A DNA stretch of 64,000 bases. It comes from Candidatus Nitrospira neomarina (lineage in GTDB: Bacteria > Nitrospirota > Nitrospiria > Nitrospirales > UBA8639). The stretch's first letter is position 1, and each line of letters opens with the position of its first letter. Below, one piece after another: positions 35,826-43,400 of the stretch. The stretch is from assembly GCF_032051675.1 (NCBI RefSeq), contig NZ_CP116968.1, forward strand, positions 4,271,001 through 4,335,000. Reading direction: 5' to 3'. The position numbers and the translations under genes are program-made. Under the pieces are notes generated by a model, which was given only the letters and a program-made list of their open reading frames with translations, ran no database searches and had not been told where the DNA came from.

Positions 35826-36244
35826 GAGTGGGCCGGGTGGCCGCTCACGGAACTTTTCGTGAGAGGAAAGTCCGGACTCCAAAGGGCAAGGTGCTGGGTA
35901 ACGCCCAGGCGGAGCAATCCGACACCAGCGCCACAGAAAATATACCGCCAATGGCAAATTCCTCGGTTTTTGCCAGGTAAGGGTGAAATGGTGGGGTAAG
36001 AGCCCACCGCGCCTGTGGTAACACAGGTGGCAGGGTAAGCGTCACCTGGAGCAAAACCAAATAGGGGGACGATTCCCGGTTTGTCGAAGGAAGCGATTTC
36101 TCTTCGGACCGGGAGAGAGACCGGCCCGGTCGAGGTTCTCGGGTAGGTTGCTTGAAGCCTAGGGTAACCTAGGTTCCAGAGAAATGGTCACCACTGGATG
36201 AAACTCGTTTCATCTAGCACAGAATCCGGCTTACAGGCCCACTC
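35826..36244 (+). ncRNA. rnpB: RNase P RNA, bacterial type A
   Basis: Catalytic RNA that removes the 5' leader of tRNA precursors. The conserved P4 start GAGGAAAGTCCGGACTCC is at about 35862-35880, the J-region AGGGTGAAATGG near 35981, and the closing strand AGAATCCGGCTTACAGGCCC at 36220-36240 pairs with the 5' GGGCC. The first and last stems (GAGTGGGCC with GGCCCACTC) define the ends to within a few bases. Length about 419, normal for type A. The protein partner rnpA is not in the window. Confidence 0.97.
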
Positions 36245-36414
36245 CTTCACCATCTTTACTGATTAGGTTTTTGGTCCAAATTATGGTGGTTTCTCCTCAC
36301 GTGAGGTCGAGGCGTTTTCCGGGAGATCCCCAAAGGGAGTCAAAAGTTACAGTCGGAGCCACGTGCTGTTCTGGGAGCTGATAGTATTCAGAGAGTTGAG
36401 AATAACTTCCTGGT

Positions 36415-36443
36415 TTGACTCGTGTTTTCCCCATTGATAGAAT
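36415..36443 (+). promoter_or_regulatory. Promoter of tRNA-Glu
   Basis: TTGACT, exactly 17 bases, then TAGAAT: a strong sigma-70-type site about 60 bases before the tRNA. Confidence 0.78.
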
Positions 36444-36504
36444 GCCGGGTCCATCGCTTCCGTGTTAATCATACAAAGGCCTAACACTCATCCTCAATTA
36501 CCGC

Positions 36505-36582
36505 GTCCCCATCGTCTAGCCTGGCCTAGGACGCCGGCCTTTCAAGCCGGCAACACGGGTTCGAATCCCGTTGGGGACGCCA
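36505..36582 (+). tRNA. tRNA-Glu (anticodon UUC)
   Basis: A 78-base cloverleaf with encoded CCA: acceptor GTCCCCA/TGGGGAC, anticodon stem CCGGC/GCCGG, loop CTTTCAA giving UUC, T arm ACGGGTTCGAATCCCGT. The D loop (AGCCTGGCCTAGGA) is long, as in many bacterial tRNA-Glu. Confidence 0.97.
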
Positions 36583-36588
36583 TAGCTT

Positions 36589-36624
36589 AAGCCGTTGAAG
36601 GTTTCTTCAACGGCTTTTTTTTTA
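36589..36624 (+). terminator. Rho-independent terminator of tRNA-Glu
   Basis: AAGCCGTTGAAG pairs with CTTCAACGGCTT (12 bp, four-base loop GTTT) and is followed by a run of eight T. It begins seven bases after the CCA end. Confidence 0.96.
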
Positions 36625-36993
36625 TAATTTTAATCATTGACGGTGATTGCTGACAGAGTATGTAGCGGGGTCATTAAGGAAATCGACTGAGGCCTCTTCA
36701 CTCGTTCAGTTAAGTTCGATATGGTAGGTATAACAGTCGTACTTTTTCCCGGGCCTGTCGAATCTTACTCTACTAATTGAGAGAGGGATTCTTTTGGTTG
36801 CCACATAATGTTGTAAACGAGCATCATCACCAGAGTCGTCATTCAATTAGGCCGTATGGTGTTTGGCTGGCCGAGGTATCACTGAAAGTACTTAAATGTG
36901 TTTGATGATCATTCCGATTCCAGTGGCTGGTTGAAGAAATGTGACGCGTGTTGCGGACCAAAATTTAATAATTCAAATTTCTGGCGAGGTGTT
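36625..36993. other. Gap between tRNA-Glu and the SUMF1-type gene
   Basis: About 370 bases. The frame of the downstream gene is open from a GTG at 36898, but I place its start at 36994. I see no other gene. A Gly/Cys-containing N-terminal extension in that frame looks non-coding. Confidence 0.4.
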
Positions 36994-37860
36994 ATGACGC
37001 ACACATGGTTAGTGGGCATAATGGCGGCATTCTTCATGTTCAATGGTCTGATCGAGCCCACCTGGGCTCAAGAATCCAAAGGAGGAAATTCTTGGCTGGA
37101 TGCTCCGGTGCAAGATGATGGACCGCCGGGTTCAATGGTACTGATTCCTGAAGGGGAATTTCTCATGGGGGATAATGACGGTCCTCGCAACGAACGACCG
37201 GAACATACCGTGTGGCTGGATGCCTATTCTATCGATCGGTACGAAGTGACCATGGCGGAATATCAGAAACTATTGGATACCGATTACAGCATTGAACCTC
37301 CGCCACTGTGGGATGATGGCGTTGCCACGGGAGAGTTAGGGATTCGACCGGCCGTGGGCATTTCCTGGAACGATGCCCAACGGTACTGTCAGTGGGTGGA
37401 AAAACGCCTGCCAACGGAGGCCGAATGGGAGAAAGCCGCTCGTGGTACAGATGGGCGAAGGTATCCATGGGGTCACATGCAGCCATTTGTGGATATTGCC
37501 AACTATAATCAGGGGACGACGGGCTGGGTAAGTTATAAATTGACACTTTCTCCGGTCACCAGTGGGACCAGGGGCATGAGTATTCGTCACGGTTTAAAAC
37601 AGGGCGGAAAAAGCGCCTATGGCTTGTACCATATGGCCGGGAATGCGGCTGAATGGGTCAATGATTGGTATGAACGTTTTTATTATGAAGACAGCCCTAA
37701 AAAGAATCCTCAAGGGCCGGCGGAGGGCGATTATAAAGTATTACGCGGGGGATCGTGGGAAGATCAGCCGGTAAACCTGCGGGTGACCGCCCGCTCAAAA
37801 GGGGAAGTTGATTTTCAGGACCTGACCACAGGATTTCGTTGTGCCAAGGATGCGAAGTGA
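36994..37860 (+). CDS. SUMF1/FGE-fold secreted protein, probably not catalytic
   Basis: The ATG at 36994 has GAGG before it and gives a 288-residue product with a signal peptide (MAAFFMFNGLIEPTWAQ). The mature part has the FGE-sulfatase fold: SMVLIPEGEFLMGDNDG, DAYSIDRYEVTMAEY, ISWNDAQRYCQW, KRLPTEAEWEKAARG, GNAAEWVNDWY, LRGGSW and GFRCAKD. True formylglycine-generating enzymes have two cysteines in the RGGSFLC...C region; here the sequence runs RGGSWEDQPVNLR without them. The protein probably binds a ligand or partner rather than converting Cys to formylglycine (inference). Such proteins are frequent in Nitrospira and often flank signalling or iron-related genes. Confidence 0.88.
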   Translation: MTHTWLVGIMAAFFMFNGLIEPTWAQESKGGNSWLDAPVQDDGPPGSMVLIPEGEFLMGDNDGPRNERPEHTVWLDAYSIDRYEVTMAEYQKLLDTDYSIEPPPLWDDGVATGELGIRPAVGISWNDAQRYCQWVEKRLPTEAEWEKAARGTDGRRYPWGHMQPFVDIANYNQGTTGWVSYKLTLSPVTSGTRGMSIRHGLKQGGKSAYGLYHMAGNAAEWVNDWYERFYYEDSPKKNPQGPAEGDYKVLRGGSWEDQPVNLRVTARSKGEVDFQDLTTGFRCAKDAK

Positions 37861-37901
37861 CGGTGCGGCTACTCGTAAGAGTCGCCACACCCGGTCAAAC
37901 T

Positions 37902-38249
37902 CTACAGGGGGGAATGGATGAGATCGCGATTGGATGCTACCGGTTGTAGTGGAGTAGAAGGCGACCGTTTTTGCCCATAGAGCCAACGAGCCGTTGTACC
38001 CCCAATATTACGAATGGTATAAGGTGCACCGCTGGGAATAAGAACTTCTTTTCCCACAGATGGCTGAATCCGCTCTCCTGCGATTTCTAATTCCAATTCT
38101 CCTGACATTGCCATAAATATTTCTTCCATATCCTTGGTGGCGGCTCTCCATTCACGTCCGGCATGATCAATCCACACCCCACAGGAAAATCCGCGAGCAT
38201 GCCAGTTTTTTGCAACGATTGCACGGTCAATGATAGGACGGCTTTCCAT
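37902..38249 (-). CDS. Cupin-fold protein
   Basis: The open frame begins at 38456, but the ATG at 38249 has AGAGG upstream and gives a compact 115-residue protein. The upstream 69 codons read as non-coding. Features: MEEIFMAMSGELELEIAGERI with the cupin 1 G-(x)5-E type motif and the HAGREWRAATKDMEE strand, then GKEVLIPSGAPYTIRNIGG as cupin 2. The usual metal ligands His-x-His are partly absent, so metal binding is doubtful. Function unknown. It converges with the SUMF1-type gene. Confidence 0.75.
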   Translation of the reverse strand: MESRPIIDRAIVAKNWHARGFSCGVWIDHAGREWRAATKDMEEIFMAMSGELELEIAGERIQPSVGKEVLIPSGAPYTIRNIGGTTARWLYGQKRSPSTPLQPVASNRDLIHSPL

Positions 38250-38862
38250 GATAGGCCTCTTAAAGAATAAAAGACTTATAAAAAATTTTGATGAATACGC
38301 TGGTGACCGCCCACATTTAGGCATTGAATCCTGCACAGACAGAAGTTTGGAGAGGGACAGGACGGGCAGGGAAATACGCCAGTCACTCTTACGGAAGGAA
38401 AGCCAGAGAAAAGAATCAGCAGTGCATTCATGGGGGATAGAGAGAAGAGAATGCATGGGAGTTAAATTTTTTATGAATGCGACCTCTTATATAGAGGGGA
38501 GATACCTCTGTCAATGTCACAATTTGTGGAAAAGATGTGAACGGTGGTGGATAATTTCACTGTGTGGTCACAATATCCTTTGTGAAAAGGGATTTCATTA
38601 TGTGAATTCTGGGGATAAATATTTTTTTGAGGACTTTGCAAAATGTGAATGCGGCAAGCCAAATAATACGTATGGTTAAGGTAGGAGTTAGGCGGTGTCC
38701 AGGTTTATTGGTTGGCACCAGCGTGACATCTGCCGTAATCGAAAAAAAATGTGGCTGATTTCTTAATTCTGCCAACAGATTCTCTGGTGTGGAGCCCTGT
38801 CCTTCGCGTATATTTTTACGCGACTATGGTTCGCAGCAAGAATTAACTCTTAGTACAACAAC
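38250..38862. other. AT-rich intergenic region
   Basis: 613 bases of AT-rich sequence (notably 38460-38700). A plus-strand frame starting at ATG 38455 (74 codons, with CQC, CGHNILC and CECG cysteine groups) ends at 38679. It has a weak upstream site and a biased composition, so I do not call it a gene, though it could be a remnant or a small zinc protein. No promoter of note for the J-domain gene was identified. Confidence 0.3.
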
Positions 38863-39768
38863 ATGATTGACGGATTGAACTATTACCAAATTCTGGGGAT
38901 TCCTGAAGATGCACTCCTGAAAGAAGTTCAGAGTGCATGGCGGAAATTTGTCAAAGAAAATCATGAGGATGTCGTTCCACAAGCGGAACGACAGGCCGCC
39001 AAGGAAAGGATGTTCAGGATCAACGAAGCCTATGCCGTGCTCAGTCACGAAGAAAAGCGGGCTGATTACGATAACGGGTATATGCTGAACGGCGGGTCAA
39101 AAATTGAACTTGTCAGGAGTCGGGTCCGAAGAGCAAAAGACATCATTCTTCGAGATCGATCGCTCATTACCAGAGAAGAGATAAAGCTGATTGAATCCAT
39201 TATCGATTATCTTGATAGAAGTACCCAGGAAAGATGTTTTGTCTGGATGGCCGATATCTTATGCGAACGTCCGGAAATGGCCAAACATGTGGTGACGTCG
39301 GCGTTTGATGAGCAACTGTTGGGGGTCAATACCCATTTACTCGACAGGCTCTTAGAAAAAGCGCCATACGCCATGACATGGGAAAAAATCTACCTCTATG
39401 GAGAAGAGATTCTCGGGATTGCCGGAAAGGAAAACAAAGAACGAAATTACAACCAACTCGCCCGTATCTTGTGTCACAGGCTTGATTTGGCGAAACACTT
39501 TGTGTACCCGTCATTTCAGGAGCAAGCCTCCGGTTGTGAAAGCTGCCTGCTGCCAACATTACTGAAATTAGCCCCAAATGAAATCACGCAGGACCATTTT
39601 AATGATTACATTGATACCGTTCACGGCATGCGGTGGATCGTTTACGGCCAGCTCAGAAACTATAACGAGCAGGCCGTTTCATGGATTCTGAAGGCCCGGC
39701 CAGATCTTGTCAGAAAGCCGGAAGAGAAACCAGCACCGAAGGAGTTGCCACTTCCCTTGCGGTCATGA
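38863..39768 (+). CDS. J-domain protein with HED in place of HPD
   Basis: A 301-residue cytoplasmic protein. Residues 6-70 form a J domain: NYYQILGIPEDALLKEVQSAW, then KENHEDVVP, then the helix III pattern FRINEAYAVLSHEEKRADYD. The HPD tripeptide that activates Hsp70 ATPase is HED here (Pro to Glu). The rest (75-290) is helical, with repeated short motifs around DLAKHF, EMAKHV and CESCLLPTLL, suggesting helical repeats; no zinc-finger or CTD of DnaJ is present. It may recruit partners without stimulating Hsp70 in the usual way (inference). Start ATG 38863 lacks a strong ribosome binding site. Confidence 0.82.
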   Translation: MIDGLNYYQILGIPEDALLKEVQSAWRKFVKENHEDVVPQAERQAAKERMFRINEAYAVLSHEEKRADYDNGYMLNGGSKIELVRSRVRRAKDIILRDRSLITREEIKLIESIIDYLDRSTQERCFVWMADILCERPEMAKHVVTSAFDEQLLGVNTHLLDRLLEKAPYAMTWEKIYLYGEEILGIAGKENKERNYNQLARILCHRLDLAKHFVYPSFQEQASGCESCLLPTLLKLAPNEITQDHFNDYIDTVHGMRWIVYGQLRNYNEQAVSWILKARPDLVRKPEEKPAPKELPLPLRS

Positions 39769-39917
39769 CCCTAGGGTCTAATGGTATTGCTTGAAGGTAA
39801 AGAGAGACTTTGTCTGCTATTCTCATTTGGGCCAGCGCCATTCTAAGCATTCCCTTCTTCGTCAGTTACATATCCATCACAGAAGAAATCCAAATTAAGT
39901 TTGGCAAGCCTTTTTAT

Positions 39918-40114
39918 TTATCTGAACTAATGACAATTGCAAATTGGCCATTATTTGAACTCAAGTAGCACCATATCTCTGGCTTACGAGATTTTACTAC
40001 CAGATTCTCAACTTCTGTTATTCGTGTCTCAAGCCAATGCAGCGCATCGCGAAATCGGCTCTCAATGCTGTCTGTGATGGGTTGGGTTGACGTTTCTCCA
40101 AACTTGAATTTGTG
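39918..40114 (-). pseudogene. Degraded coding fragment, downstream half
   Basis: Minus-strand frame bounded by a TGA upstream and a TAA at 39918. It reads like protein: ESRFRDALHWLETRITEVEN and SRKPEIWCYLSSN. It has no start codon of its own, and an adjacent frame just upstream also reads like protein (VIIKLGPTSDLVGFQKVLTG), so a frameshift between the two is likely. Family not recognised; it may be the partner or toxin part behind the RHS-like tail. Confidence 0.3.
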
Positions 40115-40215
40115 TCAAGCCGGTTAGAACTTTTTGAAATCCGACCAAATCTGAGGTAGGACCTAGTTTAATTATGACTTCTTTAAGGGAAAACCCATTT
40201 GTAAAGATTCTTAGG

Positions 40216-40358
40216 CTAGCTATGATTTTTAACGCCGGACTTCTTCACGGGATCGATAAAGTTGGTCGAGTTATTAAGGGTATAGACATAGAAATTCTCA
40301 TCGCCACCTTTCAAACCGATCCGCGAGAAAAAGGCCACGTCCTCTAAAGAAGGGTTTC
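40216..40358 (-). pseudogene. Remnant of an RHS-repeat protein C-terminal core
   Basis: A minus-strand frame between a TGA at about 40360 and a TAG at 40216. It contains SRIGLKGGDENFYVYTLNN and STNFIDP, which line up with the RHS core pattern (DPIGL-x-GG-x-N-x-Y-x-Y-x-x-N-N-P-x-N-x-x-DP). The flanking sequence has stops in all frames. This is best read as the last part of a decayed RHS/polymorphic-toxin gene. RHS identity rests on the short pattern only. Confidence 0.4.
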
Positions 40359-40457
40359 TTCAGAAGAATCGTAGCCTTTTTCAATCTACCCAATTTTTTA
40401 GTGGCTAATAGCTCAAAAACCAAGAGAAGGTGAAAACAGATGAATAAGCGTATCTTT

Positions 40458-43400
40458 TTACGAGCACCCGTTGGTTGATCCGCAGTTATCACACTTCAAG
40501 CAGGTTCCGTTCCTTACCATTTTAAATTGCTTGCATTCCGGACAGGGGTCGCCCTCATAGCCTTTTTGCCGGGCTTCCTGTACTTCCGTGATAGTGAGGG
40601 TCTCGCGTTTCATTTCCACTTTTCTGGCGACTTTCCCATGCTCTCCGTTCTTTCCCACCCCGTTACCTACGGACTTCCTGGAGGGAAACACCTCTGGACT
40701 GATGGAAGTTGAGCTGAGTGAGCGTGGGTCCACTAAACCTTCTTCGCCATCATCCGGCATATCCGTTTCCTTCTTGAGGGCATCTACGCGAAGATCTTCA
40801 GGAGCGACTTGTTCCAAATCATGCCGGTCCAGGTAGGTGATCGCCAATTCGCGGAAAATGTAGTCGATAATCGATGTGGACATTTTGATATGGTCGTTGA
40901 GCTTGACCGGTCCGTTTGGTTCAAATCGAGTGAACACAAATGCGTCCACATATTCCTCAAGTGGTACGCCATGTTGGAATCCCAGGGAAATCGCAATGGC
41001 GAAGCAGTTCATCAGACTTCGAAATGCGGCCCCCTCTTTATGCATATCCAGGAAAATTTCGCCCAGAGTGCCATCTTCATATTCGCCGGTTCGGAGATAG
41101 ATTTTGTGACCACCGACAATCGCCTTTTGGGTATACCCGCCCCGACGGGTTGGTAGGGGACGGCGTTTCGCCAGGTAACGGACCAGCACCCGGGAAGCCG
41201 CTTGTTTTGCCACGGAGGCGATGTGCTCATTTTGGGCGGATAAATCGCCCCATTCACTCACAGTATTGAGCGGTTGACTCAGTTTCGATCCATCCCGATA
41301 CAGGGCCACGGCCTTGACCATGGAAGTCCAGGACAGCATATAAGCCTCTTTCACGGAGTCCACGGATGCCTCTGCCGGCATATTGATGGTTTTGCTAATG
41401 GCTCCGCTGATAAAGGGCTGGGCGGCCGCCATCATCCGGATGTGTGCCGGAGGAGAAATAAATCGTTGTCCTATACGTCCGCACCGGTTGGCACAATCAA
41501 ATACTGACAAATGCTCGGGTTTGAGGTGGGGTGCGCCTTCGACGGTCATGGTGCCACAGCAAAAGTCCGTGGCCGCAAGAATTTCTTCCTGAGTAAAACC
41601 TAGGATTTTGAGGATATTTAATTGAGGGCTCTGAAGTTGCGATTCGGTCAGACTTAATTTTTCTCGACAAAATTCCTCGGTGAGGGTCCATTTGTTAAAC
41701 GCAAAATGAATATCAAAGGCTCCGTCCAGCGTGGCCTCCATGCGTTCAAGCACCTCGCGGTCGAATCCCTTGGCCAGCAAGGTGTCATGGTTGATATAGG
41801 GGGCCTGTTTGAGCGTTCGGGTTCCCGTCGCATAGGTGATGATATCCTGAATCTGGCTGGAGCTGTATCCAAGATGCCGTAATGCGGGGGGAAGACTTTG
41901 ATTGATGATTTTAAAGTAGCCACCGCCGGCCAGTTTTTTGAATTTGACCAGGGCGAAATCCGGCTCGATCCCGGTCGTATCGCAATCCATAACTAAGCCG
42001 ATCGTGCCGGTCGGTGCGATGACCGTGGCTTGTGCGTTTCGAAACCCGTACTGTTCCCCTAGTGCCAATGCCCGGTCCCATGATTTTTGTGCGGCTTGCA
42101 AGAGGGTGTGGGGACATTGGTCCGGTTGAATGCCCATCGGCGGAATTGTGAGCTCTTCATATTCATCCGCCGAAGCATTGTAGGCCGCTCGCCGATGGTT
42201 TCGCATAACTCGAAGCATGGCTTCGGCATTACGTGGATAGGCATTAAAGTGCCCCAATTCTTTGGCCATTTCTGCGGAGGTGGCATAGGCTTCCCCGGTC
42301 ATCAGGGACGTAATGGCGCCAGTCCAGGCTAAGGCCTGTGGCGAATCATAGGGAATCCCGATTTTCATTAGAATGGAGCCCAAGTTGGCATAGCCAAGGC
42401 CGAGGGTTCTATAGGCAAAGCTTTTTTCAGCAATTGCACGACCCGGGAATCCAGCCATCAGCACGCTGATTTCCAGGACAATCGTCCACAACCGGACAGC
42501 ATGTCGAAAGCCATCAATATCAAATTGTCCTTCCGATGAGAGAAATCGTCCTAAATTGAGGGAAGCCAAGTTGCATGCGGTATCATCTAAAAACATGTAT
42601 TCGCTGCAAGGATTCGAGGCATTAATCCGACCATCCTGGGGACAGGTGTGCCATTCATTAATGGTGGTGTCGTATTGCACGCCGGGATCTGCGCAGATCC
42701 AGGCCGCCCAGGCGATTCGATCCCATAAATCCTTTGCCGGCATGGTTTTGCAGACTGCACCGTCGGTGCGTCTGGTCAACTTCCAATCCCCGCCTGCCTG
42801 AAGGGTCTCAAAAAACTCATTGGGAATTCGGATGCTATTATTCGAGTTTTGCCCGGAGACCGTCTGATAGGCTTTGCTATCCCAATTGGTGTCATATTCA
42901 TGAAACACAAAATGGGTAAATCCTTCCTGAGCGTAGCTGAACATCCGGTGTATATAGGGTTCAGGCACAGCGGCTTCCCGTGCGGATTGGATCGCCTCAC
43001 GTAAGGAATGGTTATCTCGGGGATTGGTATCGACCTGAGTCGTCCCGTCCTGACGGGGGACATGACAGGCCTTTAAAATGGCATTCAGATGACGCGCGCA
43101 GACTTTCGATCCGGTGACCATGGCCGCCACTTTTTGTTCTTCTATGACTTTCCAGTCAATAAATTCTTCAATGTCGGGATGATCTAAATCCAGGCACACC
43201 ATTTTCGCGGCGCGGCGGGTGGTGCCCCCCGATTTAATGGCACCAGCAGCCCGATCGCCGATTTTGAGAAAGGACATGAGTCCTGACGAGCGGCCGCCTC
43301 CCGATAACGATTCTCCATCGGCCCGTAACTTGGAGAAATTGGTACCGGTTCCCGACCCGTATTTGAAAAGCCGGGCTTCCCGAACCCACAGATCCATAAT

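Follow-up and report, generated by a model that had tools for sequence, protein, structure and literature searches.

The frame at positions 38863-39768 of the window (the whole stretch of DNA that was analysed, 64,000 nucleotides in length) is open on the forward strand and encodes a protein of 301 aa, composed of a J-like domain and a predicted helical solenoid (Table 1). It reads ...FVKENHEDVVPQ..., and at the site of the HPD motif it carries H34-E35-D36 (HED). The original prediction had noted both this replacement and the soundness of the rest of the domain, and both observations were borne out: the former by the reading of the frame and by all of the orthologues described below, the latter by Pfam DnaJ (PF00226), which matches residues 6-70 over its full profile (1-63/63) with 53.1 bits against a curated cut-off of 27.8, placing the protein in PF00226. 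J domains of the PDB were also matched by the sequence of these residues. Gln23 is taken here to occupy the position of R22 in E. coli DnaJ, a numbering which agrees with the match ranges to 5nro_B.

Table 1. Features of the HED protein and its gene, in window coordinates
Feature	Position	Strand	Evidence
301-aa protein, J-like domain and predicted helical solenoid	38863..39768	+	Orthologues in 21/48 family genomes; dN/dS 0 to 0.093 (10 pairs, 9 usable)
J domain, residues 6-70	38878..39072	+	Pfam PF00226, PDB J-domain sequence matches
HED replacing HPD, residues 34-36	38962..38970	+	Codons CAT GAG GAT
Gln23, presumed E. coli DnaJ R22 position (Hsp70 NBD contact)	38929..38931	+	Q in 18/18 distinct HED domains; basic in 91% of 79 HPD
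Phe51, E. coli DnaJ K48 position (SBD-beta salt bridge)	39013..39015	+	F or I in 18/18 HED; basic in 94% of 79 HPD
Predicted solenoid unit 1, residues 102-171	39166..39375	+	Internal duplication with unit 2; helices in model
Predicted solenoid unit 2, residues 172-241	39376..39585	+	Internal duplication with unit 1
Possible partial third unit, residues 242-290	39586..39732	+	Not significant: 49/2000 and 126/2000 shuffles as good

Within the window, a cupin/FGE-sulfatase-like block flanks the gene on one side and a class II ribonucleotide reductase on the other. The FGE-like gene, the cupin and the reductase adjoin the HED gene only in a sub-group of eight genomes and in G027, and among 30 loci around the FGE-like gene, eight contain the J gene, 17 have the reductase without it and five reach neither; in the other carriers the HED gene occupies different sites. 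Apart from L058, which represents the same site as the window (as does L057, with separate flanking matches), the similarity between genes in 13 loci ends within 7 bases upstream of the ATG and within 13 bases downstream of the stop codon. Because the contexts share little more than the coding sequence, the neighbours say little of possible partners. An operon or partner could likewise not be proposed from a comparison of 16 loci (several of them short, some from close relatives or the same genome, and with groups of fewer than three loci left out), as no neighbour occurred in more than four; a helicase-like and a hypothetical protein were the most frequent real neighbours (4/16 loci each). 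In G033, a helicase-like ORF (L052:10693-12462) precedes the J frame by approximately 60 bases in the same orientation.

A homologous site without the gene is present in G009, where the similarity runs up to window position 38627 and resumes from 40456; in G019 it extends to 38833. No convincing repeats indicative of mobile element ends were seen within 38400-40500. The promoter scan yielded 6 candidates compared to 3.1 (sd 1.9) in shuffled sequences, and the terminator scan 2 compared to 1.7 (sd 1.4). Rfam reported solely RNase P RNA (36000-36249, truncated where the searched stretch begins) and a tRNA (36505-36579) within 36000-41000, both just upstream of the FGE-like gene. When 38763-38863 and its equivalents in 13 carriers were inspected by eye, with no background comparison, few of the 14 showed a clear Shine-Dalgarno sequence ahead of the conserved ATG. 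A 149-aa ORF at 38230-38679, on the strand opposite to the cupin frame which it overlaps, has no Pfam match, is variable among relatives and may be spurious.

Conservation and distribution of the HED motif

A profile search with the 301-aa protein identified full-length orthologues in 21 of the 48 genomes of the same family, and HED was read in all of them, with the Glu encoded by GAG in 11 rows of the alignment and by GAA in 10. Two of the rows, G398 and G399, are loci L029 and L028, assumed to belong to the same genomes since the J sequence and the ORF length are identical; the own loci of these genomes (L060 and L061) also read HED. The original prediction had raised two objections against itself, a sequencing error at this codon and HPD-bearing homologues in relatives. 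The first is ruled out by the uniform motif with its two Glu codons, and also because a change from Pro (CCN) to Glu (GAR) requires at least two base changes; as to the second, HPD is absent from all 21 orthologues.

As a control for the motif, we scanned 108 family loci, which are part of the family's J matches, with a J-domain model that was seeded with HPD sequences, yet recovered HED ones. A J domain was obtained from 107 of the loci; the 97 distinct domains consisted of 79 HPD and 18 HED, with no third motif among them, and the single locus missed by the scan (L117, HscB-like, in the genome of the window) carries HPD. That genome contains six J matches, of which the gene at 38863-39768 is the only HED one and the remaining five are HPD. 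In L116 (G000:C1:4413898-4414059), a protein of 280 aa, an HPD J domain lies towards the C-terminus and Pfam gave nothing else at E 0.001; similar J-domain sequences were found in 213-aa frames of the small-genome genus g4.

Beyond the family, a profile of the J domain of the HED protein run against 395 genomes of the phylum returned 10 family orthologues at 173-204 bits and all others at 64 bits or less, and the 20 loci ranking next after the orthologues all carry HPD. A short-peptide scan of contigs, a method which finds close relatives only, returned 12 loci, all titled Nitrospir-. No relative was detected among viral contigs; 141 plasmid records matched, none covering 80% of the query, and the 10 matches listed lie within residues 6-82. 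No bacterial HED J protein was found in the literature searched, the scope of which takes in few subscription journals.

The gene is nevertheless patchily distributed: 27 of the 48 genomes lack a full-length match; these include all 14 members of g4 that were searched, and some of the others are incomplete assemblies. One possible explanation is a J protein that is decaying and heading for loss, a view to which the patchiness lends itself, as does the copy in G027 (L057, G027:C56:82917-83817), which is frame-shifted in its second half and appears as two overlapping matches in different frames. Across nine pairs, however, Nei-Gojobori dN/dS was 0 to 0.079 for residues 1-71 and 0.032 to 0.093 for residues 72-290, and in eight of the nine it was lower in the J domain than in the rest; in two of these pairs dS exceeded 1 for one or both parts, and a tenth pair, saturated, was dropped. 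Because dN/dS is below 0.1 in both halves of the protein, we do not regard it as decaying, and consider this explanation highly improbable. The distances between orthologues correlate with those between DnaK sequences (18 of the 21 carriers; Spearman 0.61, the pairs not being independent), in keeping with mostly vertical descent accompanied by losses of the gene.

The C-terminal half and the structure models

The repeat which the original prediction had read in the C-terminus was confirmed, since residues 102-171 align to residues 172-241 with a score of 102 compared to a mean of 21.9 (sd 4.1) in shuffled sequences, none of 2000 being as good, and with a profile-profile E of 1e-13. An alpha-solenoid with two tandem units of 70 residues is predicted for the C-terminal half. 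AlphaFold2, supplied with 13 sequences, gave a mean pLDDT of 71.3; averaged over ten residues, pLDDT was 60-96 in residues 91-290 and 38-56 in residues 1-80. A separate model of residues 1-96 placed helices at 7-11, 15-32, 40-61 and 63-75, in the order of a J domain, at a mean pLDDT of only 67.1 and a pTM of 0.41; in Foldseek, J-domain entries ranked first for this model, but with E values of 0.02 to 0.13, TM of about 0.4 and rmsd of 6 to 11.

The best Foldseek E for the solenoid part was 0.043, to HEAT/ARM/TOG chains, and the model of residues 80-287 aligns to chains of Kap121, TOG and beta-catenin with Z up to 11.7. For helical repeats, such a Z falls short of the trusted level, so the resemblance may extend no further than the general arrangement; moreover, unlike these solenoids, the C-terminal half is matched by no Pfam model above its cut-off, nor by NCBIfam. 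PDB profile matches to EFHC2 and to a regulator (E 0.0002 to 0.008, over 64-67 residues) were set aside as probably due to chance. The domain was found in 7 of a sample of 295 phylum genomes when used as a single query and in 12 of a sample of 196 class genomes when used as a profile, in every case within the same family and in neither sample outside it. Weak matches of 24 and 38 residues to the C-terminal profile were seen in G033 and G030.

The Hsp70-facing surface and the Hsp70s of the genome

The contact positions were compared between the 79 HPD and the 18 HED distinct domains, groups that are defined by the motif itself. Among the contacts of the J domain with DnaK, PMC8215388 describes R22, K26, R27, K48, K51 and HPD, and it places P34 and K48 against SBD-beta. 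As listed in Table 1, the residue that is basic in most HPD domains is replaced throughout the HED domains at the R22 and the K48 positions, and Pro at the P34 position gives way to Glu. All 97 domains, including 18/18 HED, retain H33, D35 and an Arg at the K26 position; the R27 position is basic in 78% of both sets, the K51 position is basic in neither, and the N37 position is Val in all HED domains compared to N, H, Q or R in the HPD ones. Out of 13 columns in which at least 90% of the HPD domains share one residue, 10 are unchanged in the HED domains, the other three being P34, an Ala-to-Val and a Glu-to-Lys/Arg change. The mean net charge of helix II is 1.94 in HED and 2.89 in HPD domains, a modest drop with overlapping ranges; it is larger when helices II-III are taken together (0.39 compared to 2.15).

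In a simulation of P34A described in PMC13012618, helix II extended into the motif and the orientation of H33 and D35 was loosened. Without Pro34, helix II of the HED protein could similarly extend into the motif, so that H33 and D35 would lose their common orientation; with K48 and P34 replaced, the contacts with SBD-beta would be gone, and the J domain would fail to trigger ATP hydrolysis by DnaK in the classical way. The original prediction had described an adaptor acting without classical Hsp70 activation. The loss of this activation has become likely, both because the changes at R22 and K48 are fixed in 18/18 distinct domains and because of the P34A simulation, whereas the adaptor role and a total lack of DnaK stimulation are our inference.

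Since H33, D35 and the Arg at K26 have been retained, residual or altered binding to DnaK may persist. The protein could then be a regulator of the DnaK machine, which docks on the NBD and linker through these residues, or pairs with a normal J protein in the manner of Pam16 and Pam18, and acts as a brake or a competitor. Such a role would suit the pattern seen in 18/18 HED domains, in which H33, D35 and the Arg are retained while P34 and K48, on the SBD-beta side, are replaced, and Pam16/Pam18 provide a precedent (PMC13254874); but the R22 position is lost as well, so that docking on the NBD should be weakened, and no J gene adjoins the HED gene. We regard this possibility as rather unlikely.

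Four Hsp70 matches were obtained in the genome of the window, and the three listed are DnaK, a 631-aa protein and a weak partial match of 352 aa; DnaK and the 631-aa protein are thus the two full-size Hsp70s among the matches listed, with no third among these three of the four. DnaK adjoins its own HPD DnaJ, and the 631-aa Hsp70 adjoins an HscB-like HPD gene. The segments of DnaK at the J-contact sites are nearly identical in 18 carriers, the fragment in G024 lacking the last segment.

Relation to type IV J proteins and proposed role

Type IV J proteins are described as having a clear J domain with a non-conservative replacement in HPD (PMC13254874), and the HED protein shows both traits; the HPD motif that characterises classes A, B and C was found in none of its 21 orthologues. 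The examples given in PMC13254874 and PMC10349383 are mostly eukaryotic, and include RESA and its relatives in Plasmodium, human DNAJB13 (HPL) and Pam16 (DKE/DKS). Like these, the HED protein has a J domain that can be recognised as such but whose motif is changed non-conservatively, and it is presumed to be unable to stimulate Hsp70; unlike them, it is bacterial, has Glu in place of Pro while retaining His and Asp, and is attached to a predicted alpha-solenoid. Type IV proteins being already known, it is, as judged from its sequence, a new bacterial variant of restricted lineage. Inactive J domains for which a role independent of Hsp70 was proposed are described for TbPam16 and TbPam18 of Trypanosoma (PMC11349236), a precedent for the reuse of the J fold without Hsp70; these, however, are mitochondrial integral membrane proteins, and nothing suggests kinship to the HED protein outside the J domain.

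The bacterial J proteins with an altered motif that come closest are DjlB and DjlC of E. coli, in which HPE is tolerated, with HscC as partner (PMC13254874); DjlB is classed as type IV in PMC10349383. Following their example, the HED protein might be a working co-chaperone, HED being tolerated in this background and DnaK or a second Hsp70 still being stimulated on behalf of a special client, and the H and D kept in the HED domains would fit such activity. The change in DjlB and DjlC, however, is at Asp and not at Pro (the frame at 38863-39768 reads HED, not HPE), and their Hsp70 partner is divergent; neither an HscC-like protein nor a third full-size Hsp70 was present among the three of four Hsp70 matches listed for the genome of the window, and K48 and R22 are changed in addition to the motif. 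This explanation appears to us still less likely than a regulator of DnaK.

We favour, with about even confidence, a lineage-restricted bacterial type IV (pseudo) J protein uncoupled from classical Hsp70 activation, its most likely role being that of an adaptor or scaffold. The J fold would act as a module for protein binding next to the solenoid, whose task would be to hold a dedicated partner. Counting for uncoupling are the fixed HED with its synonymous codon turnover (21/21), the changes at R22 and K48 in a domain that is otherwise unchanged in 10/13 conserved columns, the low dN/dS, the near-identical DnaK contact segments of the carriers, and a DnaK that has its own HPD DnaJ. Counting against it are the retained H33, D35 and Arg, as one might expect a J fold free of Hsp70 to have lost its H and D, as is the case in Pam16; the modest size of the charge difference in helix II; and a genomic context that is uninformative as to the partner. 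Since the J domain is conserved overall, the invariance of these three residues is weak evidence either way. A narrower formulation, which we offer more tentatively, is that of a J fold in Nitrospirales selectively uncoupled from the SBD, one that has lost the P34, K48 and R22 contacts but retains His and Asp and is fused to a new solenoid, to act either as a brake that docks on DnaK but does not trigger it or as an Hsp70-free scaffold.

As HED is found in every copy seen in the family, the shape of the J domain is probably used there for something besides the usual switching-on of Hsp70. At 301 aa, the protein is small enough to be produced in E. coli and tested with DnaK in single-residue variants. 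Whether deviations from HPD are evolutionary accidents or were selected is called enigmatic in a recent review (PMC13254874), and the HED protein offers a bacterial case in which fixed co-changes on the Hsp70-facing surface are accompanied by strong purifying selection.
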